Shown in pieces: positions 11,601-61,784 of a stretch of 64,000 nt of DNA. The DNA is from Ceratodon purpureus (taxonomy: Eukaryota; Streptophyta; Bryopsida; Pseudoditrichales; Ditrichaceae), in assembly GCA_014871385.1 (NCBI GenBank), contig CM026427.1:9678344-9742343 (forward strand). The letters are read 5' to 3'. Each line of letters opens with the position of its first letter. The first letter of the stretch is position 1. Both the position numbers and the translations under genes were made by a program. Under the pieces are notes generated by a model, which saw nothing but the letters and a program-made list of their open reading frames with translations, did not search any database and was not told where the DNA came from.

Positions 11601-11779
11601 AGGCAAAATCTAGTTCGGGTAAGAGGCCTCATTATTATTGCCCCTCATGTGGAGACAAGTACATGTGTGTTGTGGGGGGTACATGTTTCCAAACATTTCA
11701 TGAAGAACTTCGACGCCGGAGACTTGAGAATGTAAGTATGACAAATTTTTGTTTTTATTTTTCCCAATGTAATGTGTAA
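8603..11779 (+). CDS. piggyBac transposase (DDE_Tnp_1_7 family)
   Basis: Cut-and-paste transposase. Exon 1 is 8603-8641 (MPRKAIPAWKRKE), joined in phase 0 to exon 2 starting at 8741; the frame then runs open to 11779, about 1025 aa. After a Pro/Ser and acidic N-terminus comes a Gly-Arg-Glu repeat (9390-9600), then the RNase H-like core. Catalytic aspartates: about D660 (CTIDEMMIRYKG), D747 (AMDNFFTS) and the Asp of GVDVADQLR (864-867). The C-terminus holds a zinc-binding Cys/His cluster, CVVCNKAK...YYCPSCGDKYMC...C...H. A donor at 11734 (AAT/GTAAGT) may splice to an acceptor near 11848, replacing the last dozen residues; I cannot decide between the two ends. The N-terminal repeat is unusual for the family. 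Confidence 0.9.
9390..9600 (+). repeat. 18-bp coding minisatellite (GGDGRE/GGVGRE)
   Basis: About ten tandem units of 18 bp, core 'ggcgggg(a/t)cgggaggga', translated as Gly-Gly-Asp/Val-Gly-Arg-Glu within the transposase N-terminal region. It is extremely G-rich on the plus strand with runs of 3-4 G, so G-quadruplex formation is possible. Neighbouring sequence to about 9800 is similarly G-rich but irregular. Confidence 0.85.
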
Positions 11780-19161: not shown

Positions 19162-19165
19162 TTTA

Positions 19166-20029
19166 ACCCCTAAAGAACAATTTGGCAAAGTGGGGCTTTT
19201 TTGGAGTTTGGGCATGTACCTGCAAATGCAATTTGAACTCAGATTTTATGAAAATTTTAATGAAAGCAGGCCTTGGTGAGAACTTTGTGTCGGTATTTTT
19301 TATTCTCAATTCTGATGTTGGAGTGAAAAGTTATTCACCTCTGAACCGCAAAAGCTCTTCCAAGGACAGTAAGTTAGCCAATGAGAAAGACATTGAATGC
19401 AGCAAATTCTGCCCAAAACTGCCCAAAACTGCCCAAAATTACCAAAATCTGCCCAAAGACAAAATTTTGAAATTCCACCAAAAACTGAGATTCCGATATT
19501 TTTCAAAAATAAAAATTTCGATGTATAGAGAAGGCAGTAGAGCATGTTCCCACCTTTTGGATTTTTAACCCAATTTTTTTTTTCATATGCTATTTTCATT
19601 GTCAAAAAACGGCTTTTGTTTGTGAATTTTAGTATATCCCCTAGCAGAAAATGATTTTTTTGGCAACCTTCCACAACTTTTTTGAATATAATTTTTTATT
19701 ACAATTAGATAACTCAGTCTTCTTTGACGTGCATCAAAACCCCTAAAATCCATAATGCAAAAAAATGGTTTTTTGGGTCTTCAAAACTCTGTTGTTTCCT
19801 TTTTGCGCAAGGAAAAAAAACTTATTTTTCAACTTTGAACGTTTCGATCTTGCAATTGGTGAGGAATGAGTGTGTAAGATTTAATGGACATGTAGACATA
19901 GAAGTTAGCTACAAGATCTTACGGTTAGATGTACTAATTAAGACCCCAACTTTGCAAAATCTACCTTGCTTTGAAGAGGGGCTCTTTTCAGGCAGTTTTG
20001 ATGAAAAATACCCTCAGAACTTTTAGGGG
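19166..20029. mobile_element. Non-autonomous piggyBac-type element, 864 bp
   Basis: TTAA (19162-19165) then CCCCTAAAGAACAATTTGGC; the right end GAACTTTTAGGGG is followed by TTAA (20030-20033). It is the intact relative of the split copy at 39639-58061: the right half matches the reverse complement of 39639-40330 closely, including 'tttgacgtgcatcaaaaccc'. Its open frames are mirrored in the other copy but resemble no protein, so I regard them as non-coding. Confidence 0.85.
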
Positions 20030-20169
20030 TTAAACAAAAATTTTAGAAAATATATTTTTTTTAAAAAAAATTGTTTTTTTAATCTTTTTCTCTAATTAAA
20101 AATAAATAAAACACATGATGCAGGTGTCCAATTCTTTATACAGAAAGTAAAGTGGTTATCTATTTATCA

Positions 20170-37507: not shown

Positions 37508-38095
37508 TGTTTTTAAAAAAAATTCACCCTTCTTCTTTCTTCTTGTTCTTATTCCTCTTTTACTTTTTTTTTATTTTTCTTCACCCTTCTTCATTCTTCT
37601 TGTTCTTATTCCTCTTTTATTTTTATTTTCATTTGTTTTTACTCTTCTTCTTTCTTCTTGTTCTCAATCCTCCTTTATTTACTTTTTGTTTATTTTTTAT
37701 ACGCTTCTTCTTTCGTTTTGTTTTTGTTCCTCTTTTATTTTAATTTATTTTTCACCCGTCTTCTTGCTTCTTGTTTCTGTTTTATTCATTTTTTTTTTTT
37801 TTTTCACAATTCTTCTTTCGCCTTGTACTTATTCCTCATTTAATTCTTATTTCTATTGGTTTTCACTCTTCTTCTTTCTTCTTCTTCATAATCCTCTTTT
37901 ATTTATTTTTTGTTTATTTTTTATGCCCTTCTTCTTTCCTTTTTTTCTTGTTCCCTTTTTTTAATGTTTTTTTTAATCACCCGTCTTCTTTCTTCTTCTT
38001 TTTGTTTTATTCTTTTATTTTTTTTTCACACTTCTTCTTTCTTCTTCTCCCATTAATTTTTTTCGCCCTCCTTCTCTTTTTAGCCGTCCTTTGGA
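37508..38095 (+). repeat. Polypyrimidine repeat (ttcttctttcttcttg...)
   Basis: About 590 bp of almost pure C/T on the plus strand built from 'ttcttctttc', 'ttgttcttattcctctttta' and poly-T units, lying between the two near-identical Cys-rich copies. Phe/Leu-rich open frames here are artefacts of composition. Confidence 0.9.
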
Positions 38096-39634: not shown

Positions 39635-40445
39635 TTAACCCCTAAAGTTCTGAGGGTATTTTTCATCAAAATTGCCTCAAAACAGCCCCTCTTCAAAGCA
39701 AGGTGGATTTTGCAAACTTGGGGTCTTAATTAGTACATTTAATTGTAAGGTCTTGTAGCTAACTTCTATGTCTACATGTCTACCAAATCTTACACACTCA
39801 TTCTTCACCAATTGCAAGATCGTAACGTTCAAAGTTGAAAAACAAGTTTTTTTTCCCTGCGCAAAAAGGGAACAGCAGAGTTTTGAAGGCCCAAAAAACC
39901 ATTTTTTTGCATTATGGATTTTGGGGGTTTTGATGCACGTCAAAGAAGACTGAGTTAGATAATTTTAGTAAAAAAATTATATTAAAAAAAGTTGTACAAG
40001 GTTGCCAAAAAAATCATTTTCCGCTAGGGGGTATTCTGAAATTCACAAACAAAGGCTGATTTTTGACAATAAAAATAGCATATGAAAAAAATTTGGATTG
40101 AAAATTCGAATGGTGGGAACATGCTCTACTGCCTTCTCTATACATAGAGATTTTTATTTTTGAAAAATATCAAAATCTCAATTTTTGGTGGAATTTCAAA
40201 GTTTCATCTTTGGGCAGATTTTCGCAGATTTTCGCAATTTTGGGCAGTTTTGGGCAGTTTTGGGCAGAATTTGATGCATTCAGAGTGGCTTTGAAAATTT
40301 CAGTAGCTGTCCATCGAGCAGCGTTTGACACTTAAACCTTCATAACTTGTGATCCTGATGTCAGAATTGAAAAATAAAAACACCGACACTAAGATCTCTT
40401 AACGGCCCACCTTCAATAAAAGTTTCAAAAAATCCCAATGTAAAT

Positions 40446-40474
40446 AAGGGGTATTTAAGTAATTATGGACAAAA
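40446..40474 (+). repeat. Left terminal inverted repeat of giant element
   Basis: About 29 bp matching the reverse complement of 57965-57993 with three mismatches. 'aattatggac' is repeated directly at 40461-40470 and 40480-40489, a possible subterminal transposase site. Confidence 0.85.
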
Positions 40475-40683
40475 CGCTCAATTATGGACTACTTTGCATC
40501 ATCAATAGACGTCCAATTCATGTGTTATCCCTCAAATTTAAAGACAAAGATGTCAAATATTTATGAAAAAATGCATTCCGCTTACAAGGGATAAAATCAT
40601 TTGAGTGAATTTATTATAATGTTGAATAGAGGACATCCCAGTCCCACTGTCATGGCCGAATCTCTCGGCCAGTGGCTGACTGA

Positions 40684-40723
40684 GAACCCTAAACCCTAGA
40701 AACCCTAAACCCTAGAAACCCTA
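40684..40723 (+). promoter_or_regulatory. Telobox-like repeats
   Basis: Four AACCCTA units ('aaccctaaaccctagaaac' and a second similar block) resembling the plant telomere repeat or the telobox promoter element. They lie in the left subterminal region of the giant element. Confidence 0.7.
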
Positions 40724-41010
40724 TCCTTAGAAATCTATCTGTTCTAATAAAAGGAAATACTTGCTCTGCAAAATGTGGATCTGTGAAGTGAAGCGGGTGA
40801 AGGGAAGATCGTCGGCGACCCGCTGAGTGGACACGACTGCCAGGCATCTCACATTGGGGTGTCCGTCTGTGAGGACTCCAGAGTCGTCGTTTAGAATGAA
40901 CAGTATTCACGGTCACAACGAATGGAAGTCCTTTCTAGTCGGCTGGCCGCCGACTAGGAGAGCCAACCTCTTCCTCACTGAACCGACCTCTGGAATTTGA
41001 AATACATATA

Positions 41011-41310
41011 AAAATGATGAGGAAATAAGTCCTAGTCCTAGTGATAAAAATGATGAGTAAGCTAGTCCTAGTCGGCTACCAGCTGAGTAGGAGAGTAGGG
41101 GCTACTAGTCCTAATGATGAGTAAATAAGTCCTAGTCCTAATGATGCAAATGATGAGTAAGCTAGTCCTAGTCGGCTACCAGCCGAGTAGGAGAGTAGGG
41201 GCTACTAGTCCTAATGATGAGTAAATAAGTCCTAGTCCTAATGATGCAAATGATGAGTAAGCTAGTCCTAGTCGGCTACCAGCCGAGTAGGGGAGTAGGG
41301 GCTACTAGAC
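41011..41310 (+). repeat. 100-bp tandem repeat, three units
   Basis: 'gtcggctaccagc' recurs at 41071, 41171 and 41271, exactly 100 bp apart. Each unit contains a variant of the 17-bp palindrome and 'agtcctaatgatgagtaa'. A separate 20-bp repeat ('actgtagaagcaggtcgcat' type) follows at 41403-41465. Non-coding. Confidence 0.85.
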
Positions 41311-41485
41311 TAGGTCGACGTTGGCAATTAGTCGTCCAGAAAACCCTAGAGAAGTGGATTATTAGAACGTTTACCAGTTTACTAGACGAACTCGTCGGCT
41401 GTCTACTGTAGAAGAAGGTCGCATACTGTAGAAGCAGGTCGCATACTGTAGAAGTTAGTCGCATATTGTCCAATATTTTGTCGTT

Positions 41486-41674
41486 ATGGGGAGGCGGGGT
41501 AGCAATGTGGGGCGACCATTTGGTCGGGAGACACCGGCTAACCTCGAGGAGCTCCGGCCATGGTATAGGGCGGTGGTCGCCCGTTCTCGCAACACCGCCA
41601 TTCCAGAGTTCAAATACATCCCACGCCTTCTGCAGCCAGGTGCGGTGGTTTTGGAGTATTGCTCACAGCATTGA
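41486..41674 (+). other. Small open frame in giant element
   Basis: 62 codons (MGRRGSNVGRPFGRETPANL..., with FKYIPRLLQPGAVV). Overlapping frames continue to 42057, so a spliced or frameshifted gene may lie here. No family recognised and no supporting motifs. Confidence 0.25.
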
Positions 41675-42655
41675 GTTGTTGGAGATCTCTGACGCTTCCG
41701 GCATCGCCTTCCCATTGACATTCGAGGAGTCCGAGGAGTCTGAGGAGTCCGAGAGTGTTGGCAGCGTTCACTTCAGCCACACAGGGGAAGTGTCAACGCA
41801 AACCATGTCAACTACAGGGTGGCCCCGCCTTGTTGACGAAGCTTACGACATCTCGGAGGGTGCTGGAAGTCGGTGCTCTGGCCAAGATCAGTGGTGCGGA
41901 GGGAACGCAAGCCCGCAGTCCACGTATTCGTCGTTTGGATCCGTGCATCCATTCGTCGATACTGGGTGTAGTGCTGTCCGAGCCAAGTCTACTGCGAAGG
42001 ACTGATCGCTTCATGGCGTTGGCGACCATATGCAGCTTTTTGGTTTTTTGGCTTTAGGGTGAATTACTGTGTGTTAGAACTGTCCACCTCGTTTTCAATA
42101 GAGCTGCTTCACACACTCGGATAATTGTAGAATTCATGGTTAGTATTTGTTACTGAGGCTTTAGGAGTAGTGGCATCTCTGATGTATACAGAATACAAAG
42201 TAACATGTAAAGGGCGGAACACTACCGTTGTACTCCGATAAGAATATAATGAAATGGATAAATATTTTTTCCCAGTTTCTCAAAGCGCATAGTGGTTCTA
42301 CCAATGTTGTGGAAAGCGTCGGCGGGCAGCCGACTAGAGTAACAGTGTCCACCGTAAAAATCACAGGCCATACAATATAGACCAGCCTCACAAAGTCACC
42401 GTTCATGATGCTTATCTAACATGGTTAGAGGCATCGGCGGACAGCCGACGACCACCGAAGAAGGAAAAGTAAGGCATCAGAACAACAAATAGAAGACAAA
42501 GCGTAATACATGACTAGTATTGGGTCTACGGTAAAATACAATTCTTATTCGAAGGAATCACAGTGTTGACAATATTCAACTATAACGTTTACAGAGGAAA
42601 CCATCACTAGCTACATCTTCTACAGCTAAGATCACAATCGTCGGCGGGCAGCCGA

Positions 42656-45600
42656 CTAGTCTTCCTCCTCGTCATTCCAGTTCATCGAGATTCCATGCGA
42701 TTCGAAGTTTGCCATGGCAGCAATCACAACATCTTCGGGTATTAGATGGGACTTTGGGGGCCCCTCATGCGTAGTTTTCTTGGTCCTATGAGTGTATACA
42801 ACGGATTTACACTCCACCCACTCCGCAAGAGTCAACTCCCTTTCCCACCGTCTTGTCCAGCACTCTCTCGCAACTTTCTTCTTACCTTCCTTCTTGCCCT
42901 TCATCGGAGTCCACCATTCAACCTTGAACTTACCGTAATTAGGACCAGGCTCTGTTATAACAGGCTCTATCGCCCTACCCATCCAAATGGGTAGGTGGTC
43001 TTCCTTACACGGACGACAGAAAACCCAATCGCCACGTAAAACGTCACGATATGGGTTAAACACAGACTTCGGCCTAGAGTTTTTCGGACCACAGAAAGGA
43101 TAGGGCTCCACCTCATCCTCGTCACCGGGACGAATATCCGGATCCGGTATATATTCGTCCTCTACATCGAATGTGGTGACGTGGTCCCGCTTCCAGTCTG
43201 AGATAGGCCAGAATCCTTCCTGTAAGGTGGCGGAATTGGGGGGCAGTGGCTCGTTGACCTCCTTTAAAATTCGCTCCCAATACAGTACATATGGTAACAT
43301 GTCTTGTGCGTATTTCTTATCCCGAGCCATGCCAGTTCTCCAGTACTCAATGTACTTAGATAATCCACTTTTAATGAAATTTCTCTTCTCTGAACACTCC
43401 GCTGCCCTTGCCACCTCTTTATCCGCGTTCTTCTTGCCCTCATCGACTTCAACACTACCCCATAAGTGCTTATGAGGAACCGGTTTGGGATCACCGACGG
43501 GCAAACGTGGTTTACCCTCTTTGTCTGCCCTCCACATTTTCACGGGTTTGCCAGGTGGAAGCCATGACGGATCAGTTGTACGCTTCTTGTACCTCATCAC
43601 GGGCCACCCCGCATCCTCTCCATCCTCCACTACATAGAACTTAAAAAGATGCATTTCACTGTGACCTTCTATCGCATTACCTCCGTCGTGATGAAAATCA
43701 GCAACATAACTTTTGAAGTCTGCCACTTCCTGAACAACCTCTGGAATAAAGGCAACTGTCTTCTGAGAATCCATGAATGCCTTCATAAGGTCGGCAAGGC
43801 AGTATGTGTTCTTTCGCTTAATGAGTTTCGACAGGTGACTGAAGTGGGCGTCGATGTCCTCATGTGTGTGTCCCACAATCAGGAAACCAACTGTAACTTC
43901 CTTGAATATTCGCCTCGCCGTCAGCAACGAGCAGAATGCTAGAAGAAACCGGTTCTTGTTGTCCTTCGCAGAATTGTCAAGCTGGAGATACAACTTCTTC
44001 GGCAAAGGAACAGCAGGCCTACCAGGCAGAGGTGGAGTGAGTGGTTCATCTCTAGAAGGTGGAATTGAGGGAATGCAACGTGACGATCCATGCATAAGCG
44101 CTGCAAAGAATTCATTCTGTGGCGGTGCCTCGAAGAGTGCTTTTGACTCCCGGACAGGTAGTCTCTCCAAGGCACGGAATACCCTGCACAACGAGGAGAT
44201 TGTGAAATTTGGGTCTCCTGGCCACAGGGCAGTTGCATAGTGTGCGTAGGCGCCATCTCCGTGACCGTGAGTCAGCATTCCAGTACAGGAAATCGGAATT
44301 TGACCAAGCCCTGCCGTAGCCTTTGTGATACGTTGCATGCGGGGGATCGCTGTTTTCGATGTGTCCATCTTATCATGTATGATGCATAGGAACTCAGTAG
44401 GACTCTGTATAGATTGGGTTGTCCATCCGTAATAAATGTTGCGACAAGCTCGCTGATAGTTCAAATGCCTGGTCCTATCCTCTGTCAAGCTCTGCCACTC
44501 GTCCGACCCTCTAGGATACTTGGCAATGAGTTCAACGAGGAAGTCACACTCAGTGTACTTGGAGAAATTACTTCCTACTCCCTTGACCTCAACGTTGCGG
44601 AAGTACTCCTTCCTCATGCGACTAACGGAGGACTGCGAAATCAGCTTCGCGTTGCACTGCTCATTGACCTGAATAGCACAGAGTGAGGTCGATCAGTTGG
44701 GAAGTTCGTCATCCAGTCGGCGGGCAGCCGACGATAGTAATCACTACAATTCAGTAAACTATCCAAAGTGAAAGAAGATGAGGAGGAACTTACAGCGTTG
44801 GCCATTTCGCGCATGTGATTCCAGTTCATCGCAGACGGGAGTACTTTGAGCGCGGCCACTCTCTTCTTGCCAATCATTCGAAACTCATTGGGCATTTGGT
44901 CGGCATTCTCATTAACGATAGTGGTCAACGTCGCGCGGGCCTGGATTGTGTGAATCTAGGGACGATGTACACCGGAATTTCCGTGACTCCCATTGACACG
45001 GCCACTTCGGGCCGAAGCCTTGTAGCTGTAGTACGCGGATTTCGATACTCCGTGAATGATATACCACGCCACTTCACATACGTCAACGTTCGCAAGAGTA
45101 ACATAGAGCTTCCGCTTGCCGGGTACAGTATGTAAGTGCCCTTGCACAGCGAAGGACATCTCTCGCCTCGCCTCGAATGTTGTTGCGTAAAATTTACGAC
45201 GAATACTCACAGTATCTTCCCATCTAAAAGTCTGGCAACATCGGTCCTTGCAACAGCGTTTTGAGCTCACTAAGTGGCATTCAGCAGGGACAACCATTTG
45301 ACGAAGCTTAGTGGAAGAGACGTCATCTTTTTCGCGAACTTTCCTCCTCACCGATCGATAGGCATTCTTCGGGACACCATCCAGACCATCGTCCGCGTCG
45401 GCGTCTGCTAAATTCTCGGAGCAGTAAGTAATTATATCAGAGAGAAGGTGACCCCCTTCTAAGCGAGTGTGAGTCAGACGCCATCTGAGAGTTGTCATCT
45501 GCAGATGATCGTCTTCAGAGACGAAGAGTACCCCAACCTCTGTATCCCCTAGGACTTCATCATCACATGCCTCGTCCGGTAAACATACTTGAATCATTGC

Positions 45601-45792
45601 CCTACCACGGACTGATAGGTCATCATTAAGAAGTTCGACATACCTATTTCTCCAGAGGTGGCGGTCAGGATAAGAAGCATCTGGAGTGGAAGGAGTACCC
45701 GAGGTCCCGGAATCCGGACCCCAACAATGATCATCTGTTTCTACGTCGGATTCCCTTTGTTTAGACACATCGTCGTCACTGCTGATATTCAT
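42656..45792 (-). CDS. DUF7869-domain protein, putative transposase (one in-frame stop)
   Basis: Exons 45792-44794 and 44668-42656 on the complement, joined in phase 0 across a 125-bp intron (GTAAGT donor, TTCAG acceptor), 1003 codons. The N-terminal half has a Cys cluster (SSKRCCKDRCCQTF) and VDVCEVAWYIIHGVSK, typical of proteins preceding DUF7869. The RNase H-like core shows acidic residues in IIHDKMD (about D432), LYLQLDN (D564) and GHTHEDID (E603-D606), expected for a DDE-type nuclease. A single TAG at 44958-44956 interrupts an otherwise continuous frame (HRP-stop-IHTIQARA). The palindrome occurs in the intron (44716) and abuts the stop codon (42640-42656). Probably the mobility gene. Catalysis is inferred, and this copy may be inactive. 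Confidence 0.75.
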
Positions 45793-45813
45793 TGGAGACC
45801 TAGTCCCCAGATC

Positions 45814-46566
45814 CTACTCAGACGGAGCGGAGTTGCTTTCATCAATTTCTTCATTGTCGTTCCCCAAGTGAGGTTCCGTCGGCGGGCAGCCGACGGGACA
45901 TGTGCCAGCCAACGCGCCATTCACAAGTGGACATACCTTGTATCCACTCCAAAGTACCAATCGCCCCACAGCACACCCGATCTTTAACACATCCGGTAAC
46001 TCACAGAAAGCAGGTGTTTCAAAGAATTCTGGATTGACGGACGACACTCTCACTATTAGAAAGAAGCTGTGAGGAATCAAGAACCCCTCCCACGTTCCTT
46101 TAGGAGAGCACTCCATAATGACTCCAGCGGCTACACAACGCTTTGAGCCTCCGGATTCCTCGAGGAGCGCAACTTCCATCTGCTCTGCGAGGTCCAGGAA
46201 TTCTTGAACGGGCTTGACATCTTCTTCAACATCCGTCGGCTGGCAGCCGACGGCGTTGATGTCATTGTCTTCCACCTCTCCGAAAGGCCTGAGGTCAGCC
46301 GCCTCCCACAATATCATTTGTCCTAAGCAGTTGCTCAAGGACTTCACACCCTCATCCGGAAATGGTATATTCATTTCCATGCTATCTGAAACCTCAATCA
46401 CTTTTACCACCACCACTATAGGATCAAATTCTACAACACGTTGGATCACTGCCGTGCCTGCATAATAGAGCCCAGAATGAGTAAGGGCCACGACAACGCC
46501 CTTTTTAACCTTCCAACGCCCTGATCGGCCATTCCTTAGAAACGTCTGGATCGGCTCTACTTCCAT
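45814..46566 (-). CDS. DUF8039-like accessory protein
   Basis: The first in-frame ATG is at 46566 (MEVEPIQTFLRNGRSG) and the stop is at 45814, 21 bp before the start of the DUF7869 gene, giving 250 aa. Two similar halves each end in a motif like 'LGQMILWEAADLRP' and 'VGRLVLWSGYKVCPL', resembling the DUF8039 domain found in plant transposon proteins. The sequence between them is acidic. Two palindromes are read as protein (VGCQPTD, VGCPPTE). It could instead be an upstream exon of the DUF7869 protein through unrecognised splicing. Confidence in the frame is good; in the family, moderate. Confidence 0.55.
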   Translation of the reverse strand: MEVEPIQTFLRNGRSGRWKVKKGVVVALTHSGLYYAGTAVIQRVVEFDPIVVVVKVIEVSDSMEMNIPFPDEGVKSLSNCLGQMILWEAADLRPFGEVEDNDINAVGCQPTDVEEDVKPVQEFLDLAEQMEVALLEESGGSKRCVAAGVIMECSPKGTWEGFLIPHSFFLIVRVSSVNPEFFETPAFCELPDVLKIGCAVGRLVLWSGYKVCPLVNGALAGTCPVGCPPTEPHLGNDNEEIDESNSAPSE

Positions 46567-48010
46567 TGGATAAAAGATGAAGACCTCGTCGGCGGATAGC
46601 CGACAGGGTCGACGGGAAGTGTCCCCGCCGACGGAGTAAAATGTATCCACCGACAACGAAGACGACTCGGCGGGCAGCCGACGCGGATCGTACGACTCGG
46701 AGTGTGCACAGAAATAGCATCCGCCGACGATGACGGACACGTCCGCCGACAAAAATTGCAGGGGACCTTAGTTGAGAAGCAGTATGATGTCCCTAACCTG
46801 TCCAATCAGAGACTCCTCTCAACCGTCCAATCAGAAACGATAAACGAAGACAACAGAAACGGCAACAGAAGGTGCGGGACAGTTAAGCACATGCGGGAAT
46901 AATAACGGTCCTCTCAGGAAACGTGTGCGTCAGGAGCACTCTCAGAGGGAATTGAAAGTGCAATGACAGAAATAGAATGAAGTATGCGCATCTAACGGGG
47001 GGTTAGTTATGAATTCCCAGGAGTACAAATTGGCGCCAGAATCGAATTCAATTTTGCGCGCCTTGGACAGATCAAGATCCCATCATGGCGGCGAGATACC
47101 CCCGCCGTCACAGAACAATGTTAGTTCATTATTACGAATTTGAACGTGGCGATTGGAGCAGCTGTCACATCACATGCCCACGCCATCATGACTTGGTGAC
47201 GGATTGAAAAAAAGTCAAAAGACGTCCCATCATCATCCTACGTGGCGTGATGGGACGGATGTTAGGGATGACCATCCATGCATGGATGGTATGTACATAG
47301 CCATACGTCATGACCCATCGGGCGTGACGATTCAGTCTCGGGAGGTGGGGGTCTGCAGGGTATACACCCGCCACTCCCGACATTTCCTCCTCATTTCCAG
47401 CCTTCTCTTTTTCAGCTCTCTTTTGTCCTCTTCTCAGCGCTCCGCAGAGGTCGCGTCGGCTGCTAGGTTTTTCTGCGTCGGCTGCTAGGGTTGAGGGCGT
47501 CGGCTCCTTCACCTGCGCGCGTCGGCTGCTGTTCGAAGGTCATCCGCCGACGGTGAAAGGCCATCCGCCGACGCCATGGCAGCCTCCGAGAGTGGGTAAG
47601 TTGTCCAGTCGGCTGTCCGCCGACGCTCCCCTTCTTGAGACCTTCATGTTTCCGTTTTCTCGCATGGGTTTGTCCCTCCCGTCGGCTGTCCGCCGACGCC
47701 ACCCCTTCTTTTGTCCTTCATGTTTCCGTTTTCTCGCATGGGATTGTCCCCCCCGTCGGCTGTCCGCCGACGCCACCCCTTCTTTTGCCCTTCATGTTTT
47801 GTGTTCTCTCACATGGGGTTGTTCCTCCCGTCGGCTGACCGCCGACGCCACCCCTTTCTGAGTCCTTCATTTTTTCTATTTTCTCACATGGGTTATTCCC
47901 CCCGTCGGCTGTCCGCCGATGGGGAGGGCGTGTCCATCCGCCCCGTCGGCTGTCCGCCGATGGAGTGAGAATCTGATGGTCTAATCTTGTGATTCTAATT
48001 TTGCAGGGCG
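46567..48010. promoter_or_regulatory. Divergent promoter region of the giant element
   Basis: 1.4 kb between the leftward and rightward genes, with palindrome copies at both edges (46588, 46666 and the array at 47608-47961). A splice acceptor, TTTTGCAG, ends at 48006 just before the rightward ATG, so the 5' leader is probably spliced. No TATA box stands out. Confidence 0.55.
47608..47961 (+). repeat. 74-bp tandem array carrying the palindrome
   Basis: GTCGGCTGTCCGCCGAC or a close variant at 47608, 47681, 47755, 47830, 47904 and 47945, with spacings of 73, 74, 75, 74 and 41 bp. Each unit also contains 'ccttcatgtttccgttttct' or a variant. It lies directly upstream of the ParB/methylase-like gene, possibly in its first intron. 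Confidence 0.9.
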
Positions 48011-51000
48011 ATGGTCGACTCCACCGCAAAACCAAATGGGTTACGGTGGCTCTGTGACAAGGTTGTTGATCCTGAAGTACAAATACTCGCACGGGGCTTG
48101 AAACCGAGGGTGACATTCCTCGCTGATTCGAAGATAACGGAGTGGGGCATCACCTGGCGTGACACTCCCACGTCGCTGGGCTTCGTGACCAAAATAGGTC
48201 AGAAGCAAATGGCGGGTGGACCAAGATTTGAGATTATTGGAGCCACGGAATGCGAGGATAACGACAACGTGTGCTTGGTGTTTGCATCGGTTCCTGTCGC
48301 GGAGGGCACACCAGTGGACTGCTTCGCGGTTGTAATTCCGGTTGAGAAGTGCATGGACGGCTTGTGCTCTAAAGAAGTACAGGAAGCGGCTACTTGGGGC
48401 AGGGGCGAGAACATAGTTGTTGAACAGATACTCGACGTGATTGATACGCTCGGAGACAAAGTGATGGAAGAGAAGACGAAGAACTCGGTTAAGCCTTCAC
48501 CAAAGAAAAGAGGCGGCCGCAAGTCTGCTGTAGAAGCGGGCACTGGTACAGTCACCCCCGAGACCGGAGAGACACAGGCGACAGGGGAGTCATCGAGAAG
48601 GAAGAAGGGAAAGGCAGCGGCTAATGAGGGCAAGGGTGGGAGACAGAAGAAAGGTGGGAAGAAGGAAGAGAAAAAGCAGACCGTGGCGGAAGCTCTCATG
48701 CTCGCAAACAATCTCACTTCCAAAACAAAGGACACCGACGTCCTTGCTATGTACCAGACGTTGGAGGAGGGACTTGGGCACTGCTTCCCCAACGGGCAAC
48801 GTGCCCTTCCTTGTCAGATTCCATATAACAGGATACACATAGCTCCCGACGAATTTAAGTACAGAGCGATATTCAGGAAGAGGCAGGATCAGATAAGTCT
48901 TTTCTACAAAGGACTTGGAGCAATCCGGAAGAAGCCCGAGCTGTACTGCCTTCCTATGAGTGGTGACCCCAGAGTAAAGGATCTAGTGACGGGCGAGATT
49001 AAGCTTAAAGGCTTGGAAGGACTTCTTAGACCTATGCCAACCCTAAATATCAGGTATTCACGTACATTGGATGACGGCACAACGACGCTGGTACCTTGGT
49101 ATGAAGATGAGCTCATCCATTGGTACATAATTGGGGGCCAGCACACGTTTGAGGCTTGTCGAGAACTGGGAGAGAAGGAACCACTGGACTCTCCTATGCG
49201 GCAGTATTACCTTAACCACGATATCATTCCTGTATATGCTGATAACAAGGATACCCTCATTAAGGTCTCTAACGCATTAAACATCGAGGTGAAGGATAAA
49301 GTCGCCGAAGTAAGTTTCAGGTCCCAGCTGGCGAAGATGCGCGCCAAATGGATCGAGCGGGGGAGGATCGAGAAGAAAGATGACTTCAGCGCATGGAAGG
49401 TAATTTACATCTTTCTCTTTTCGTGTTGTTTCCATGTTGTTGAAAGTCGTCGGCGGCCCGCCGACGCTCAGGTGGTTTTCCGTATTGTAATTGTGGGATT
49501 TATTTATCGATTTCATTTTCTTCTTCCTTGCAGGAGTTCTGCAAGGAGTACCTCAGTCCGATTCTCGGAAAGACCCCTACGTCCCAAACCTTGAAGCTGC
49601 CCTTAGTCTTCGTTTCTGATGAAACATACAACGAGTGGCAACTGGTGTTCAACGCCTGGGAGGAGGGGAGGATCATCGGGGAGGACGGTTTGAAACCAGG
49701 CTTTCCCCCAAAGCCAGCCCGCCGGGACATAACACTCAACGACATGCAGTACGTGATCGGTCTTCGGGACCACGAATGCAAGAGGCTGGCCAAGGAAGTT
49801 CTGGACCTTAAAGTGTACCTCAAGGTTACTGGGAAAGAGGTGGTTCAACGGGACGGAATATCCTTGGAGAATTGGTGTTTTCGTGTGAAGTACGAGTATG
49901 TTGTCCGAAACGAGCTCATGTGTATTTACAGGGGCTTTGCACTGAAGAAACCAGGGACTGGGAAGCATATTGAGTGGAGCATGGATGATTGGAATTCCCT
50001 TGAAGTCAAGAAGGGGTTCAATGATACAATGATTAGTAATATTCGGGCTGACTTGGAAGATAGTCCTGAGGGGAAGGAGTGGCTTAAGGGACGGAATCAT
50101 CCGCTCACGCCGTCGCACGGGCCAACACCAGAATTCTTCAAAGACATTGTGCAGAAGTACTGGAAGTCGGATGTGGACCAGTCTTCGCAATCGTCTGTAC
50201 AATTCGATGCCCGGATTGCACAGGACCTAGGTGAAGTGTGCACAGCTCTTGACGTTCGCGGAGCATTCTCCTTGGACAAGGCTCAGTATGAGATGTTCGT
50301 AGTCTTTGGCTACGATCGAGCGGGAAAGGAGATGCCTAACATGCGACAACAACACGTTATAACTGTCGCTGAGAGGATTCACTGTGAGGTGGAGGAGGAG
50401 GTCATTCAGGTGGATGGGGAGGTAGATACAATTAAGGTGAATAAGCTTGTCACCCCATCCTTGTGGCTACTCGATGCTGAGTGTAATTACACTCTTCAAG
50501 GCGTGTCAAGGCTGACGAGTAATTCGTGGACGGTTCATACTATGCAGTACTTCCCTGATAGTTCCGCCGGGTTTCAAAGGAGTTCTCTCATTGACTCTAG
50601 ACCCAAGGTTCATGTGTCCGTTATGTATCCAAAAACAACGCCCGGGGATGCATGGAATACCTTCTCGGACTTCACTGGTTTGAAACGTCCGCTTCCTCCC
50701 TATGTGGACGAAGGAGAAGATCATCTTGGGGAGGATTGGTCAAATGGACACTGCCACGCTAGTTACTCTTTCCTCCAATCTCTTCTGGAGAAAGCGATGC
50801 AGTTTGAGGACGTTTGGGTGATCAATTGCTGGGGAGGGGGGAACGTCACGGCCCTCGCTCTGGTAAGTTACTGCAGTCTCTTCTGGTGCCTTCGCTGTTT
50901 GCTCACCGATCGTCGGCGGGCAGCCGACGCTGATTGAATCCTTCGTGTTTCTTGGGTAAGAGATTTCCTTAACCGTTTCGTCTTGTTCTGCTGCAGAAAA

Positions 51001-52187
51001 ACCATTTGACTGTAATTGAGATCGTGCGTACCGAGGAAGAGAGATACGAAGCGCACTGTCGGGTTCGGAATATGACGTTCATTCCGGGCGTTTATAACGT
51101 GCCCGTCGAAGCTCCAGTTCAGACCACGCAGTCTGGGGCCGGGCCGTCTGTCCCCGCCTCTACTAGAGGCAGGACTGGCTCTCTCACGGCTGCCGACTTG
51201 GGTGTGAATGCGGAGGAGGCCCATTTGGTCGGGAAGGGTGGATGTATGGGTTCGGGGAAGACTGCGGGGGTTCCCTCACAGAGTTATCTGGACTCCGACG
51301 ACGATGTCGACGAGGAGCCACCAGATGTACCCGACCCAGACGTTGTAGATGAAGCTGGAGATGCCGAGGAACAGCCAAAAAACGAGGACGACCAAGCTGA
51401 GGCTCGCATTCCAACTGGAGATGCAGAGGTAGAGGAGCGAGACACGGAGGACTTAGACTATGAACCAGAACCCGACGTATTACCACTGGAAGAATCAAAT
51501 CCTCGTTACGTGAACCCACCGCTGTCGCAAGTTCTAGGGGAGACCGGAACTGACTCCCTCAGCTTCGGTATTATTTCTCCTACAATTCAAGAGCAGGAGA
51601 CTCCTCTCGCCGAGCCAGAACGTGATTTAGACCAGGCGGGGCGTCCAAAGAAGATGCAGGTTCCTCTAGCATCGAGGCCTGACGATGAAGTGGTTCTCCG
51701 TGTCCAGAAGCCTACCCAGGAGCCTGCAGTGAGCATTGAAGGGCATGTTCCTCCTGCTGCGGTCGGCGGGCAGCCGACGGCAGACGAGCAAACCTCATCT
51801 AACCCCTCTGCCAAGACCAAGTTGACAGGGAAGTCAATCGCATTCGTCACTCAAGGTGTGAAGGGCGCAACTCGGATGATTGGCCCAGATGAGAACCCTC
51901 TGGTCAAGACACGATCATTGAAGAGAAGTAAGACCGATGGTACTGCGCAGGATTCCTCTCTTGTTGGTAACTTATCCCGTGATTCCTCAGGGGTTCAGGA
52001 AGGGGAGGAGTCCTCTGGGAAGGGCAAACGGAAGGCTGCTTCGAAGAAGACTTCCTCCAAGAAGGGCACATCTGGGGATCTGCTCATGAGTCCCAGGAAT
52101 GTGGACGCTCCAGAGGACGTTCTGTCACCTCCGCGGGCATCCAAACGGGAGCCTAGGCCGAAGAAGCACAAAGGTGGAGGTCAGTGA
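48011..52187 (+). CDS. ParB-like plus degenerate DNA-methylase-like protein
   Basis: Exons 48011-49399, 49534-50862 and 50997-52187, all phase 0, 1302 aa. After a globular N-terminus and a Lys-rich linker (residues ~155-235, likely nuclear-localising), residues ~265-400 resemble a ParB/sulfiredoxin domain: PYNRIHIAPDEFKYR, then HWYIIGGQHTFEACRELG, then IIPVYADNKD. Residues ~815-930 follow the layout of class-beta N4/N6-adenine/cytosine methylases: VHVSVMYPK where DPPY is expected, CHASYSF before motif I, INCWGGGNVTALAL as motif I, LTVIEIV as motif III. Loss of DPPY suggests it does not methylate. The C-terminal ~350 residues are acidic and disordered with basic patches. Both introns contain the palindrome. 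A donor at 52179 offers splicing into the HAD exon at 52420. AATAAA at 52289. Assignments are from motif reading only. Confidence 0.65.
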
Positions 52188-52419
52188 ATCAGGCGGTGGC
52201 CCAGTCCATCTTTTAAATGCCTGCATTGATAATTTAGTCTAGTGATCGGGCGCTAGGATTGTGTTAGATGTTTGTACTGCCAAATATGAATAAATTTTCG
52301 GTAAATGCCAAGTTGTACGCTTTCCCTTTTTCCAAATAATGTTGCTTGCAAGTCAGCTGTCCGCCGACCGTCATCCTAACCGTCACGTTTGTCCTCTGCT
52401 TCGTTTTCTGTCACTCCAG

Positions 52420-53189
52420 AGTCCGCGGACAAGGAAGTCCATGGAAAACTTCACGAAGATAGACCCAGTGCAGTTCTGGAGCAGGGACCTCCACCTCTGA
52501 ATTCACTTCACATAGCCCCGGAACACGCTGGTACTCAGGTACACGATCCAGTGCTGAAGTACTTTCTGGTTCTGGATATTAACGGCCTGCTATTAGTCCA
52601 GACGAAGCAGGGTACTAGGTGGAATACTAAACTTAGACCGGGTTTAGAGAAGTTCCTAGAGTTCTGCCTGGACAATTTCGAGGTGGTCTTCTGGAGCTGC
52701 GTTCAGGAAAAGAGGTTCGAGATTCTGTGGACAGTGTTGCAGCAGCGCTGTCCTCGTCTAGATGCCGAAGTGCGCTACAAGTTCGACCAGAGTTTCTGCG
52801 AGACTTGCGTACATAAGGCTAGTAGGGAGTTTTATTTGAAGAGACTCCAGACCCTCTTTGACCTCGATGACGGGCTGAAGGGGACGGGGGCGTCTTCAAT
52901 TAACACTCTCTTGGTTGATGATTCCCCTTATAAGAATGTCGCAAACACTCCTTGGAACGCTGTGCACCCTACACCATATACCTTCGAGTCGAAGGAGTCG
53001 GAAAATAAGAGGAATTATCTGCTTGGAGAATTGATTCCTTGGCTTACCAGTTTGAAAGAATCTAAACTCCCCGTGCCCGAGTACTGCCAGAAACACTCCG
53101 AATTCGGTCAGCGTCGTCTGTTTCCGGGGGATGAAGCTTATAGTCTCTTCTCTCCACACATTGATTGCCCTAAACGAAAGAGAACATAG
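52420..53189 (+). CDS. FCP1/HAD-like module 1 (probable alternative 3' exon)
   Basis: The frame opens at the acceptor CACTCCAG/AG (52419) with no suitable upstream ATG. Donor 52179 (GGAG/GTCAGT) and this acceptor have matching phase 1, so it can be spliced onto the ParB/methylase-like gene. The domain resembles FCP1/NLI-interacting phosphatases: LVLDINGLLL (motif I, usual DxD now DIN), VVFWSCVQEK (motif II), NTLLVDDSPYKN (motif III), and ends FGQRRLFPGDEAY. Loss of the second Asp of motif I predicts weak or absent phosphatase activity. AATAAA at 53278-53283. Confidence 0.65.
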
Positions 53190-53456
53190 TAGATGTAGAA
53201 ACTGTTTTAGAGAGCATGCACATGATTCAGTCGGCTGCCCGCCGATGGGATCTTCATGTATTTAGACTTTTACAGTAAATAAAGTTTTCCTCCTTTTAAA
53301 TATATGAGAACGGAACTCAGTGTCGAGACTGTGTATTCTGTCGTGGGTGTCTTATTGTGTCTCCATTTGTACACTAGAGCAAGTATGAATTGTGAGCACG
53401 CGATTGATCACCCATGTTTTCTTGGAATTTGTCCTTCATTGTTCAGGAGTCACTAG

Positions 53457-56415
53457 AGGATGACGCTGAAATTGAAGTGCACCAGGGACCTTCCCTTCTT
53501 AGTATGCTCTTGGAAAGGTACCCTACATCTCCTGATGGTGATGCTCACAGAGAAGAGTCTCCGGGAGCGGAAGCCGAGAATGAAAGTGATGGGGAGGACG
53601 AGTACGACTATCCAGTCGGCGGGCCGCCGACGCTGTCTGCTGCACATAGCTCTGGCCGGTGTGCGATGGCTTCCACCTCGTTCGTCGAGACCAACGTCGC
53701 GATCCCGCGCACCGGTTCCCGGCTCGATGATTCCGTCAGTGTCAGCACTGATATTATTGCGCGTAATATTGAGGTACCTCTCCAACGATACTACCTTGTC
53801 CTTGACATTAAGGGATTGCTCATCGCGGAGCACCACGGGTCACTATAAGAAACCTGTGTTTTTGGAGATGTTTTCCAAAAACATGGTCGTGTTTTTGTCA
53901 TGTCTTTGTGTCGGTCAATCATGTCTTGAGGATCGTGAGGACGTTAACGCGTTTTTTGAGATAAACTGGGCTTATTGTGCTCAGACATGGACATGCTACC
54001 CTAAAAACGCAAAGACGTCTGGAAAAACGTCCGCATCTATGGGGACGTGGCAGAGGACATCCCTTTTAACACAAAATTGCCCGATTGACAACGGCCTCGT
54101 TTTGACGGACGGTAAAATGGGCCCGAACTTACTGGGCTGCGAGGTAACTTCCTGCCCGAAGTGAAAAAAACCAGAAGAAGGGCAGGGTCAGCCAAGGGAG
54201 CAAAAGAGGCCGAGAGGGATTGAAGGACCTTTTTTTATTTTTTCTTTGTAAATGAAATTTACAATATCAAATTTCTTCTCTATTTTTTTTTCAAAGACGT
54301 TCGCATGTCTCGGAAGATGTCGACACAGACATCTGTCGAGACATGGTGACGTTCATTCATCCATTTTTTGTTCATTGGCGGCAACATTCATCCTTAGATT
54401 AGGGCTTTGAGCCTTGGTAGGGTTAGGGTGAGCCGCCACTTTGGCGGCTTCTAATCTTGTATTTGAGAGCTTTGTTTCAAGCTTTTTGTGTCTCCATGGA
54501 GTCTCTCCCGTTTGTTTCCCTATCAGTCCGTCATTTCTTGTCCAAGTAGAGTGAGAATTAGCATGGTTGTAGTTCTCTTGTAGGGCTTTCCAATGGTAGT
54601 AAGCACGTCCAATTCCGAGTTATAGGGAGTGAGATATGGCCTCCCGAAGTTGGGGTTGTCAAAGGAGTGCGGCTGGAGGAAGGGTGTCGGATTTTTAGCA
54701 ATCAGTCCTAGGGTTTTGTTTCTATGCTTCTGAAATTTTTAGGGTAGATTAAAAATTAACTCAGCTTTCCAATAAGCTAAGGCACGCCCCAATCCAAGCT
54801 AGGATGGAGGAATGGCAACCTAAAAACTGAAAGGTACTTCAAAAAACTCTGAGGGGGGTGTATTTTCCCAACTTTATTCTTGCTCTCCATCTTCTTCTTT
54901 TCTCCTTTCCTCCCTTGTTCCTTTCTTCATGTGATCTTCTTTCCTTCACTTCATTGTGATTAAATGCCACCTTCATAGCTGCAGAAACACCTCTGTGGTT
55001 GCAAAGACACCTTCATGTCTGCAAAAACACTCGCATGTCTACAAAAAACACCCTCATGTCTGCAAAAAACACCCTCATGTCTGCATAAACACATTCATCT
55101 CAGCAAAAACACCCTTCCACACATCCTGTACACGTTGACATGGCCATGTCAGCCATGTTAAAGTTTACAGCATGGAGATGTTCACTATAACAAATGCCAG
55201 ACATAGTTCATGTCCGCACAGACATCGGCGTGGCCATCACGTTGTTACCAACAGACGTCTTGAATACCACGGTGATGTCCCCGGTGATGTCTTCAGTAAC
55301 GCATTTCGAAGTCAATAATCTCCGAAAACTATGCTTACGTGGCAGGCCACGCTGGACTTTCGCGGCTGACACGTCAGATTTTCCCGCGGCCACCTCAGAA
55401 AATGGCGGGTCCACGTTGTCCGCCACGTCACCATGGCAGCGGTGACATCCTCCGCCCATGTGGCATTGCCCGGAAAATTTCACTGCTGATGTGTCATGAC
55501 GTGGCGTCCACGTTGCAGACTTTGCCGGCCCTCGAAATCACCCGGAGACGCGCGTGCTATGGCGATGTCTACATGTTTTTTCGGATGTCCGCATTTGTTT
55601 TCCCTGCGTCTTAGATGTTTCCATGTCTGCACGACATCCTTTCTAGCGTCCACTTGTTTTTTTCAACATGATTCGGGATGTCTTCAAAAACACGGGTTTC
55701 TTATAGTGGGTAAATCGGTGATGACCAGAAGACAAAAATTCATATCCGGGCTAGACCAGGACTTCTTTCATTTCTAGAGTTCTGCACGGCGAATTTCGAG
55801 GTAGTCTTTTGGTCCACGGTTTCTGAAAAGAATCTCGATCGTCACTTCCAGAAGCTGTTAGCCATTCATCCTTTGCTCAGGAGCAATTACAGACGCCTTC
55901 CAGGATTCTGGTGTGATATCTCAACAAGGACTAATCCGAATGGGAAACGGGAGTACTTGTTGAAGCGTCTGGATAGACTTTTCTGCGACACTAGGCTACT
56001 GGCTCGATCAGGTGCCACTGTCCAGAATACCCTACTGGTAGACGACCGCCCTTATAGGAATGTACTTAATCATCCATTTAGCGCTGTCCATCCTAATTCT
56101 TTTTTCTGGGACTCTGCAGAGTGCAAAGAACCTCAACCCACCCCCAATCCCTATTTAACTAGGGTAGTTACACCATTCCTTGCAGGACTTAAGCAGTCTG
56201 GATTGGATGTCCAGGAGTATTGTAGGAAGAATTCTAGCGTGGGGAAGCCACGTCTTTTTCCAGGATCTCGCGAATACCAGAAGTATAGGGAGGTTATTCC
56301 TTCTCATGCATGCGGGTTTGACGTCCCGGGTGATCCTGAATCTTGGTTTGTGAATTTACCTTGTCCTCCGGAAGCCCCTGGTAGTTCCATCATCGGCGGG
56401 CAGCCGACTGATTAG
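53457..56415 (+). pseudogene. FCP1/HAD-like module 2, interrupted by CACTA
   Basis: The coding pieces 53457-53840 and 55709-56415 flank a CACTA insertion. Motif I is LVLDIKGLLI; after the insertion come FLEFCTANFEVVFWS, NTLLVDDRPYRN and GKPRLFPGS, parallel to module 1. Even without the insertion, the rejoined frame meets TAA just after EHHG, so the module was or has become defective. The acceptor choice CTAG/AG at 53456 gives phase 1, as in module 1. The end codes IIGGQPTD from a palindrome. Confidence 0.7.
53841..55708. mobile_element. Non-autonomous CACTA element
   Basis: Ends CACTATAAGAAACC...GGTTTCTTATAGTG, the terminal signature of the CACTA (En/Spm) superfamily, with the 3-bp duplication GGT (53838-53840, 55709-55711). 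Repeated 'catgtctgcaaaaacac' motifs (55005-55100) and 'gacatgtc/gatgtc' words near the ends look like subterminal binding repeats. No transposase frame in 1868 bp. Confidence 0.9.
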
Positions 56416-56724
56416 AGCCTATATCAGCGGCGCCACTTGTTTTAAAAATCACATATGATACTCTACACTCTTTAGTTTAATACGCTAAGACTGTTCCCTT
56501 TCTGAACTTCCCTGCACCACACATTTGTTTCCAGTGCTGCAATTCGGTACTTCTTTTTGTAGATGCATGCATGACATTTCACTTGCTGCACATTTACCTT
56601 TGAGGTTTCTTCAATGCATCGTTTTGTCGGCGGGTCGCCGACGACTTTGAATGTAGTCCATTTCTTTCATATACTTCGTCCTGTTCTTTGATTTCCTTCA
56701 CTGATTGCATTTCATATTCTTCAG

Positions 56725-57402
56725 GGTTCCTCGTTTTATTTCAAATGCCTTCACGGTCCACCTCATCATGTCAAGAAATGTATTGTCCTATGCGTCAATG
56801 GCCTTCTCTGCTATGTGGATCCCAGGATAGAGGCTTTGCCATGGGATACGCATCGGAATGTAGTGAAGCGCCCAGGTTTGAAGAAGCTTTTTGACATGCT
56901 TTTCTTGCATTTCCATGTTAGTCTGTGGTCGAAGATGCCCTTGGGAGAACTGAAGCCTTTACTCACACATATTCTGCCGGCCAGTGTAATGGAGAGGCTG
57001 TCCTTCGTGTATAGCAGAAGTGACCTTATCGACCGGGAGAATTTCCCCTGGAGTTATAAGACGTTAGGTCAAGTTTGCTCCAAGGTACAGTCTAGAAACG
57101 TCTGCAAACTAGATCAGGTGCTATTTGTGGATGTTGACCCGAGGTCATTGAGGAGGACACCAAATTGTATGTGCTACATTCCTTGGCCTTTTCAGGGTCA
57201 TCTAAACTTTCCGAACGATGACGGTGTTATACCTAACATTGCTACAGATATCCTTCCTCTGGTTTATCCCTTGCACAAGTTCGGATCTGTACCGGAGTAT
57301 ATGGCGCAGGCGTGTAGGCCGGGGCAAGTGCACTGGGCAATTGAAGCTGCGAGAAAGTTTGGACGTGCACGAGTGGACTGGACTGAAGTTTGCTGGGACT
57401 GA
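56725..57402 (+). CDS. FCP1/HAD-like module 3 (degenerate)
   Basis: Opens after the acceptor CTTCAG/GGT (56724) and runs to TGA at 57402, 225 codons. Motif I is CIVLCVNGLL (both catalytic Asp positions lost), motif II HVSLWSKMP, motif III VLFVDVDPRSL; the end EYMAQACRPG aligns with EYCQKH/EYCRKN of modules 1 and 2. The acceptor phase is 0, unlike modules 1 and 2, so its donor is unclear. There is no promoter-proximal ATG for the full domain. Probably a pseudophosphatase exon or remnant. Confidence 0.5.
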   Translation, partial: GSSFYFKCLHGPPHHVKKCIVLCVNGLLCYVDPRIEALPWDTHRNVVKRPGLKKLFDMLFLHFHVSLWSKMPLGELKPLLTHILPASVMERLSFVYSRSDLIDRENFPWSYKTLGQVCSKVQSRNVCKLDQVLFVDVDPRSLRRTPNCMCYIPWPFQGHLNFPNDDGVIPNIATDILPLVYPLHKFGSVPEYMAQACRPGQVHWAIEAARKFGRARVDWTEVCWD

Positions 57403-57993
57403 GTTAGGCGGACTTTTTCGCCTCCAACTTGCAGTTCTTCCCTCCTCCTGACCAACAGAACACCTTCCATCGGCTGCCCGCCGACTTGGTCGACCCGTTT
57501 GTGCGGCCTTCAAATATATGATTTACTCATTGACCTTACGGCTATGCTTTCAGGGAAATAGTTTTCCGAGTAGGTTATAATGTGATAGGATTTACGTCAA
57601 CTTGGTACATAGTGCTGGGTGTAGACTTAATGTTGTAGGACTTCATGACTCAAAGTGCTACGGGACTAGTTAGTTTAGCGTGTTCTATTATCGGCGGGTC
57701 GCCGACTCTGTATTGTACATTTCATTACTTGAATCAACATGATATTCTTTAAAGTATTCATTGTAACTCTTATTCTGCATCATATGTCGCAATCTTCGGG
57801 TTCATATATCCATCACTGGCAAATTCCGCCCATGCACATCTCGATGTCCAGTTTTGCATTCCATATTCTGTGGTATTCATGTACAATGACACTGTTCATC
57901 TGTGGTCTCCATCCATCGGCGGTCCGCTGAGTTCGCATTGGTCATTTTTGAATTCTGGACTTTTTTTTGTCCAGAATTACCTAAATATCCCTT
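57403..57993. other. Right non-coding end of giant element
   Basis: Contains palindromes at 57469, 57690 and 57915 and ends in the right terminal inverted repeat (57965-57993). 'aattctggac' and its complement 'gtccagaatt' form a small palindrome at 57951-57978 mirroring the 'aattatggac' pair at the left end. Confidence 0.7.
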
Positions 57994-58065
57994 AAATTGC
58001 ATTCATAGGTACATGCCCAAATTCCAAAAAAGCCCAAATGTGGATGATTGTCCTTTAGGGGTTAA

Positions 58066-61000: not shown

Positions 61001-61784
61001 AGAATGACACCTCATCATACATTCCATGAAGTGGGAGAATGGTAACTCAAGGTAACTTCTATTTGGATGAAGTAACATTCCAGGAGAATGGACATTCCCT
61101 GAGGTTTCTCTACTGTGACTCCCACTAATGGCCTGCGGAATGAAATATTCCTGCCTAGGGAAGTGACAGTCCGAGAGAATCATCTTGTGACAAGCTCATT
61201 CGTTGCTAAAAAAGATCCACGTTTTGATAATCTGCCAACAAACGAGTCCCTGTTCTCGTCAGAATTGGACAGCTTGATTTCAGAGGTAACAAAGAACTGG
61301 TATTTTCTTCCTCTACATCTGTTTTCAGTTCATGTTTCTGTGGACTCTGACACAGCAGAATGATGAAAACATGTCTCGAGTTCTGGCTACTGTTTCGTGT
61401 ATTAGTAGTATCTTATAAATTGTCAATGATTATATACCGTTTTTAAATGCCACTGACATGGTTATGATCCCATCTTCATAGGTTGTACATGAATGGGTCG
61501 AAGTCTGCTCAACCTCTTCCCCTAATGCATCCGCTACTTCAGGAACTCCGATACACGGATTTTATTTTTACATTCTACTTTTACTTTTTACTTTTACATT
61601 TTCCCAATAGTATATATGTGACCTCTGACCCTATTTTAGTTCCTATTGTCACACTTCTCATGCTATGAACCAGCTCTCTTCCATTCCTCACTTCTTATGT
61701 TCCGCACTCTAACTTCAACAAACTTCTCAACTTCCTAACTTCTTAAATTTCTTAATACACGAATTGCAGTCCCCCCTTGGGTCC
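58066..61784. repeat. AT-rich intergenic with dispersed repeats
   Basis: 58600-58810 matches 33435-33740, and 59278-59345 matches 35715-35790, so one larger repeat family occurs on both sides of the giant element. At 61140-61290 a frame (PREVTVRENHLVTSSF..., SSELDSLISE) ends at GAG/GTAACA and could be an exon fragment of unknown identity. No other gene is supported. Confidence 0.45.

Follow-up and report, generated by a model that had tools for sequence, protein, structure and literature searches.

A giant, likely Sola1-type transposon of the moss Ceratodon purpureus carrying an array of short palindromes

The DNA analysed here – the window – is a stretch of 64,000 nucleotides from the moss Ceratodon purpureus (GCA_014871385.1, contig CM026427.1, positions 9,678,344 to 9,742,343, forward strand); coordinates below count from its first letter. 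Within the window lies a giant transposon, inserted into a piggyBac-type miniature inverted-repeat transposable element (MITE), with a DUF7869 transposase gene on one strand, and a long cargo gene and three HAD-like modules on the other (Table 1). The element is likely to be a Sola1-type transposon, and carries copies of a 15-bp palindrome, TCGGCKGNCMGCCGA, throughout its length.

Borders, ends and landing site

The first base of the transposon is 40446 and the last is 57993. The outer ends begin AAGGG, and agreement between the two inverted ends ceases just inside 29 bp. When the insert is removed and one AAAT is kept, the flanks align, gap-free across the junction, to an uninterrupted relative of the host MITE found elsewhere in the window. 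An initial annotation of this stretch had proposed a DNA transposon with exactly these ends inside a MITE, with inverted repeats of ~29 bp and three mismatches, AAAT duplications, and an insert whose removal rejoins the MITE: the 26 matched positions of 29, the AAAT on both flanks (single in the empty site) and the restored empty site support each of these claims. Its size of 17.5 kb is right for the outer borders (17,548 bp) but not for one element, because 1,868 bp belong to a later CACTA-type insertion; subtracting these leaves a transposon proper of 15,680 bp. The element it described is thus real, although three features had been overlooked: the nested insertion, the array of palindromes and a pair of stops that interrupt the transposase frame. 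The nested element, which splits the second HAD module, itself looks non-autonomous and contains 20-bp tandem repeats (CACCTTCATGTCTGCAAAAA, 54968–55113).

The motif AATTNTGGAC occurs four times in 64 kb on both strands – twice at each end of the transposon and nowhere else in the window. These pairs, present as AATTATGGAC on the left and face-to-face as AATTCTGGAC on the right, are natural candidates for transposase binding. A short AAACCCTAG run, which resembles plant telomere repeats, lies at 40685–40723, ~240 bp inward of the left end.

Over 801 aligned bases, the left part of the interrupted MITE shares 705 with its relative; the total for the empty-site alignment (767 of 898) extends beyond the MITE end and is not a figure for MITE identity. 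The relative had been placed at 19166–20029: it exists, but its span from TTAA to TTAA is slightly longer (19163–20033). Elsewhere in the window an open frame of 1,012 codons (8741–11779) matches the piggyBac-type profile PF13843 (profile search, E=2.4e-79). A TTAACCCCTAAA string lies on either side of it, at 7555 and at 13078, and agreement of these strings with the MITE ends extends over 12 bases; the stretch between these positions has TTAA ends, at which no inverted repeat longer than the TTAACCCCTAAA strings was found. Because a PF13843 frame sits between strings matching the MITE ends, the label "piggyBac-type", already given in the initial annotation, is well founded, and the 7555–13078 stretch may have supplied the activity by which the MITEs were moved. 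Within the same frame, at 9389–9601, lie ~12 copies of a G-rich 18-bp tandem repeat (GC 0.60, strong GC skew).

Table 1. Features of the transposon and its host MITE (window coordinates; an empty strand cell marks a feature without orientation)
Feature	Position	Strand	Basis or remark
Transposon	40446..57993		Inverted ends, AAAT duplications, empty-site alignment
Left terminal inverted repeat, 29 bp	40446..40474	+	26/29 identical to right repeat
Right terminal inverted repeat	57965..57993	-	26/29 identical to left repeat
Target-site duplication AAAT, left copy	40442..40445		Sequence
Target-site duplication AAAT, right copy	57994..57997		Sequence
Two AATTATGGAC copies (40461, 40480), left end	40461..40489	+	Candidate transposase sites; AATTNTGGAC scan
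Two AATTCTGGAC copies, face-to-face (+57951, -57978), right end	57951..57978		Candidate transposase sites; AATTNTGGAC scan
DUF7869 transposase gene	42656..46566	-	Exons 46566-44794 and 44668-42656, intron 44793-44669
Cargo gene (ParB- and methylase-like by eye)	47576..52187	+	Exons 47576-47595, 48007-49399, 49534-50862, 50997-52187
HAD module 1 (NIF, PF03031)	52420..53189	+	E=2.3e-13
HAD module 2, split by CACTA-type insertion	53448..56415	+	PF03031, E=2.6e-8 on right part; left boundary guessed from splice acceptor
HAD module 3	56724..57402	+	PF03031, E=5.2e-5; left boundary guessed from splice acceptor
Nested CACTA-type element, 1,868 bp	53841..55708		CACTA ends 26/28 identical; 3-bp duplication GGT
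Array of 30 palindromes TCGGCKGNCMGCCGA (≤2 mismatches, 21 exact)	40812..57930		Motif scan
Palindrome starts 1–15	40812 40939 41072 41172 41272 42319 42434 42641 44717 45879 46236 46589 46667 47609 47682		
Palindrome starts 16–30	47756 47831 47905 47946 49450 50913 51763 52353 53231 53616 56393 56627 57470 57691 57916		
Tandem array of three 100-bp units, each with one palindrome	41013..41312		Tandem-repeat scan
Tandem 74-bp units, 4.3 copies, five palindromes, within modelled intron 1 of + strand gene	47604..47919		Tandem Repeats Finder
Interrupted piggyBac-type MITE (TTAA CCCCTA ... TAGGGG TTAA) hosting the transposon	39635..58065		Terminal strings, relative, empty-site alignment
Uninterrupted relative of the MITE, TTAA to TTAA	19163..20033		Alignment, terminal strings

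Genes carried by the element

The minus-strand gene matches DUF7869 in Pfam (E=5.7e-44). Pfam gives this family no functional name, and a search of the available literature found no mention of DUF7869. Modelling supports the view that it is an RNase-H-fold catalytic core with three invariant aspartates – a DDD transposase – so that a nameless Pfam family gains a suggested function. Among the best 120 of 201 matches to the frame, the nearest named proteins are P0003 (92% identical over 56% of the query) and P0004 (85% over 57%), both of Ceratodon purpureus, followed by P0010 of Physcomitrium patens (63% over 66%); Riccia proteins also match, and a further protein is 99% identical over 96% of the query. 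P0003 and P0004 represent further transposase copies in Ceratodon, known from proteins rather than from element ends. The frame contains two in-frame stops (45814–45816 and 44956–44958), and P0004 has a stop at neither place. Since the transposase frame is broken by these stops and a HAD module is split, the present copy is probably not autonomous. The initial annotation also named a DUF8039-like part. PF26133, which we take to be DUF8039, was not reported by Pfam in the N-terminal pieces from the window; this says little about the label, as the profile was equally missed in P0036 and P0040, whose precomputed annotation lists it.

The plus-strand cargo gene, modelled from GT-AG splice sites and open frames, has four exons encoding 1,310 residues with no internal stop. 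By eye, a GGQHT stretch can be picked out, as can, across intron 3, a stretch resembling motif I and an acidic strand behind it. Of the cargo labels in the initial annotation, DUF7869 and the three NIF/HAD modules (all above the cut-off of Pfam) stood, whereas the ParB- and methylase-like labels gained no profile support. Pfam, NCBIfam, PHROGs and PDB sequences gave none for either; the only match over the ParB region is to FlbD, below threshold (E=0.025), and the structure model of this region, with a predicted local distance difference test score (pLDDT) of 36.6, lends no support. The DPPY-type motif is a methylase signature, and inspection by eye revealed no clear one in the cargo protein. 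One relative came to light, with 94% identity across 34% of the query.

The NIF/HAD family is marked by the signature DxDx[TV]. The first motifs of the three modules, read by eye, are LDINGLL, LDIKGLL and LCVNGLL, and because they depart from this signature the modules may be inactive as phosphatases. The frame of the first module has no methionine upstream of the domain and does have an in-phase splice acceptor; for this reason the cargo gene may splice on to it (donor 52180, acceptor 52420).

The palindrome array

At ≤2 mismatches, TCGGCKGNCMGCCGA is found 30 times in the element, and the remaining 46 kb of the window contain no copy. Relaxing the threshold to ≤3 mismatches gives 32 sites in the element (the two additional ones, 47434 and 52130, are left out of the count of 30) and one outside, where first-order shuffling of the element, repeated 100 times, gives a mean of 1.58 and a maximum of 5; at ≤4 mismatches the numbers are 42 and 10. 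The nested CACTA-type insertion has no copy at ≤2 or ≤3 mismatches and one (included in the 42) at ≤4. That the motif stands out was also evident from a scan of every 5-bp dyad (spacer 0–8, arms with at least three different letters): the top dyad of the whole scan is that of TCGGCKGNCMGCCGA, with 26 occurrences, while the next dyad that does not form part of it occurs 3 times. The scan reaches 2 in 30 shuffles, and likewise in three other tiles of the same length, two of which overlap.

Palindromes are distributed unevenly with respect to genes. Although modelled coding exons make up 10,271 of 15,680 bp (a total that counts exon 4 three bases beyond the stop end at 52187, the site counts being the same either way), 25 of the 30 copies fall outside them (P=5.3e-8). 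With clusters of six and three copies each collapsed to one, five of 23 are coding (P=2.2e-5). Each of the five modelled introns – one of which is tentative – contains at least one palindrome, and eight of the 30 copies belong to the tandem arrays, one built of 100-bp and the other of 74-bp units.

Traces of the palindrome are evident in related proteins. The two copies at 46236 and 45879, which lie in transposase-coding sequence, encode VGCQPT and VGCPPT; at the same alignment positions, P0010 from Physcomitrium has VGGPPI and IGGPPT. P0004 seems to have a palindrome copy where the transposase intron lies, and a copy in P0121 falls within the second intron of the cargo gene; in P0002 there is a match upstream of its own transposase exon. 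A scan of 131 proteins with the peptide form gave 14 matches (shuffle mean 3.14, maximum 7) in ten proteins, of which five are convincing (P0002, P0003, P0004, P0010 and P0121). The matches in P0028 and P0030 were discounted as normal transposase sequence, and those in P0012, P0014 and P0021 because the sequence context is not clear. Distant relatives in the same set, such as P0036, do not carry the peptide, so the transposase itself does not require it.

A function as an RNA hairpin was considered and set aside. The half-site positions are able to pair in only 10 of the 30 copies (GA 10, TC 10, GC 6, TA 4), which favors a protein dimer on DNA; no RNA gene was found in the window, either as an Rfam family at the gathering threshold or as a tRNA. 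The ratio of observed to expected CpG is 0.86 in the element, 0.64 in the window to its left and 0.62 to its right. This ratio says little about the array, since it reaches 0.82 in the array-free CACTA-type insertion and 0.86 in one 2-kb tile elsewhere. Our impression is that the array is unreported; the literature search touched on motif arrays only for the comparison with VANC (below).

Two further features lie outside the transposon. An open frame at 61713–63938 carries HAT/TPR repeats like those of the splicing factors CRNKL1/Syf1 and Prp39 (best model E=2e-44) and is probably a host gene. A T-rich tandem array with periods of ~119 and ~224 bp occupies 37523–38048.

A proposed role for the palindromes and the place of the element among known systems

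Palindromes that extend over the full length of the element and lie for the most part outside coding sequence suit a role other than transposase binding. We propose that the element is a giant cut-and-paste transposon of the Sola type in which the palindromes are not cutting sites, but the address for an element-encoded dimeric protein with a marking or anti-silencing function: a proposal to which we give about even credence. According to this model, transposase supplied in trans by other copies would bind the paired AATTNTGGAC sites at each end, excise the element and insert it with a 4-bp stagger. Meanwhile a dimer of an element-encoded protein, for which the opposite-strand gene is the most likely source, would bind the two GTCGGCKG half-sites of each palindrome and coat the element along its length, keeping it transcribable either by marking it or by excluding host silencing. 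A more specific version can be envisaged, but we advance it tentatively, as clearly the less probable: some 30 parS-like palindromes over 15.7 kb would be read by an element-encoded ParB-methylase as a self/non-self label, with coating and modification keeping silencing off. A prokaryote-like partition or modification module would then have been reused for anti-silencing in land plants, and conserved from Ceratodon-type mosses to Physcomitrium.

Other explanations of the array deserve consideration. In En/Spm and Ac, subterminal repeats serve end pairing, and some transposons need many sites; the palindromes, copies of which come near both ends (40812 and 57916), might thus be transposase-binding sites that have merely spread further inward. 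We consider this unlikely: the copies run through the middle of the element and every modelled intron rather than concentrating at the ends, where a different motif, AATTNTGGAC, is placed twice each. Alternatively, the array might have arisen from short repeats, selfish or recombinogenic, that spread within the element and have no function in trans, or its units might be regulatory sites for host factors; the share of copies held by tandem arrays speaks for this. Against it, the palindromes are confined, within the window, to the element, are missing (at ≤2 mismatches) from both its insert and its flanks, lie predominantly in non-coding DNA and are kept at homologous coding positions in Physcomitrium, and this explanation too appears improbable.

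Doubts may also be raised about the element itself. The nested insertion and the two stop codons could be taken as signs of a chance or misassembled patchwork, but the ends match, the 4-bp duplications are identical, the empty site aligns gap-free and a single motif array covers both halves, all of which makes this a negligible prospect. Whether the element represents a new superfamily is a different matter. The initial annotation knew of no named plant superfamily with such a combination and thought it might be undescribed. In favor of this idea, the fit to Sola rests on descriptions rather than on a reference Sola1 sequence, and DUF7869, nameless as to function in Pfam, could belong to an unrelated DDE lineage in which 4-bp duplications likewise arise. 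We nevertheless regard it as doubtful and, as an account of the element, not supported, given that the DDD core, the 4-bp duplication, the size, the moss host and the opposite-strand cargo all agree with descriptions of Sola and Sola1 in the published text available. Other superfamilies fit less well. CACTA/EnSpm elements have CACTA-type ends and 3-bp duplications, which the nested insert alone displays, the AAGGG ends and 4-bp duplication of the transposon ruling out membership; piggyBac elements target TTAA, and the AAAT target rules these out. Membership of KDZ (Kyakuja-Dileera-Zisupton) – which the moss element resembles in its giant size and accessory genes – is excluded by a duplication of 4 bp rather than the 8 bp described for Zisupton (PMC12730594), and the transposase is of the DUF7869 rather than the KDZ type.

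Sola elements, in the passages available, are characterized by a DDD transposase, 4-bp duplications, terminal inverted repeats of 11–1124 bp and lengths mostly of 2–9 kb, with some above 15 kb (PMC10741241), and are known from the moss Physcomitrella (PMC10741241, PMC9033089). The transposon described here has a 4-bp duplication, a length (15,680 bp) and terminal repeats (29 bp) within these ranges and, according to the model, a DDD arrangement on an RNase-H fold. The resemblance to Physcomitrella Sola, which is by description, extends to the moss host and to sizes allowing more than 15 kb; the corresponding passages (PMC10741241, PMC9033089) mention neither cargo nor an array.

The closest parallel in organization is Sola1-1_Ec32 of Ectocarpus, a 21.5-kb element that, as described in the accessible part of the report, encodes opposite its transposase a protein of 1,104 amino acids that combines a ParB-like with an N4C/N6A methyltransferase domain; the suggestion made there is that ParB-methyltransferase proteins may attach to the transposon that encodes them and alter it epigenetically (PMC12477816). 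Both elements are giants and carry, on the other strand from the transposase, a large second gene (minus for the transposase and plus for the cargo gene here). The moss element differs in inhabiting a land plant, and in its three HAD modules and dense palindrome array, an array being neither affirmed nor denied for the Ectocarpus element in that part of the report; ParB and methylase are by-eye labels only in the moss element. If our proposal is correct, the array would provide a concrete target for self-marking, where the same part of the report names none for the algal ParB-methylase giants (PMC12477816). The ParB-methylase marking idea would then reach land plants and stand beside an unrelated system, that of VANDAL21, whose anti-silencing protein VANC relies on motifs that tandem repeats have multiplied in its introns and upstream regions (PMC5735166, PMC10398659). 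A system of the VANC type implies an element-encoded protein that binds the motif and removes methylation. In the portions of these sources at hand the parallel lies in the motif – a short one that is element-specific (here, within the window), mainly non-coding, located in introns and upstream regions and multiplied by tandem repeats – but VANDAL21 is a Mutator-type element, and its motif is of 9 bp, non-palindromic and in one orientation, as against the 15-bp palindrome of the moss transposon.
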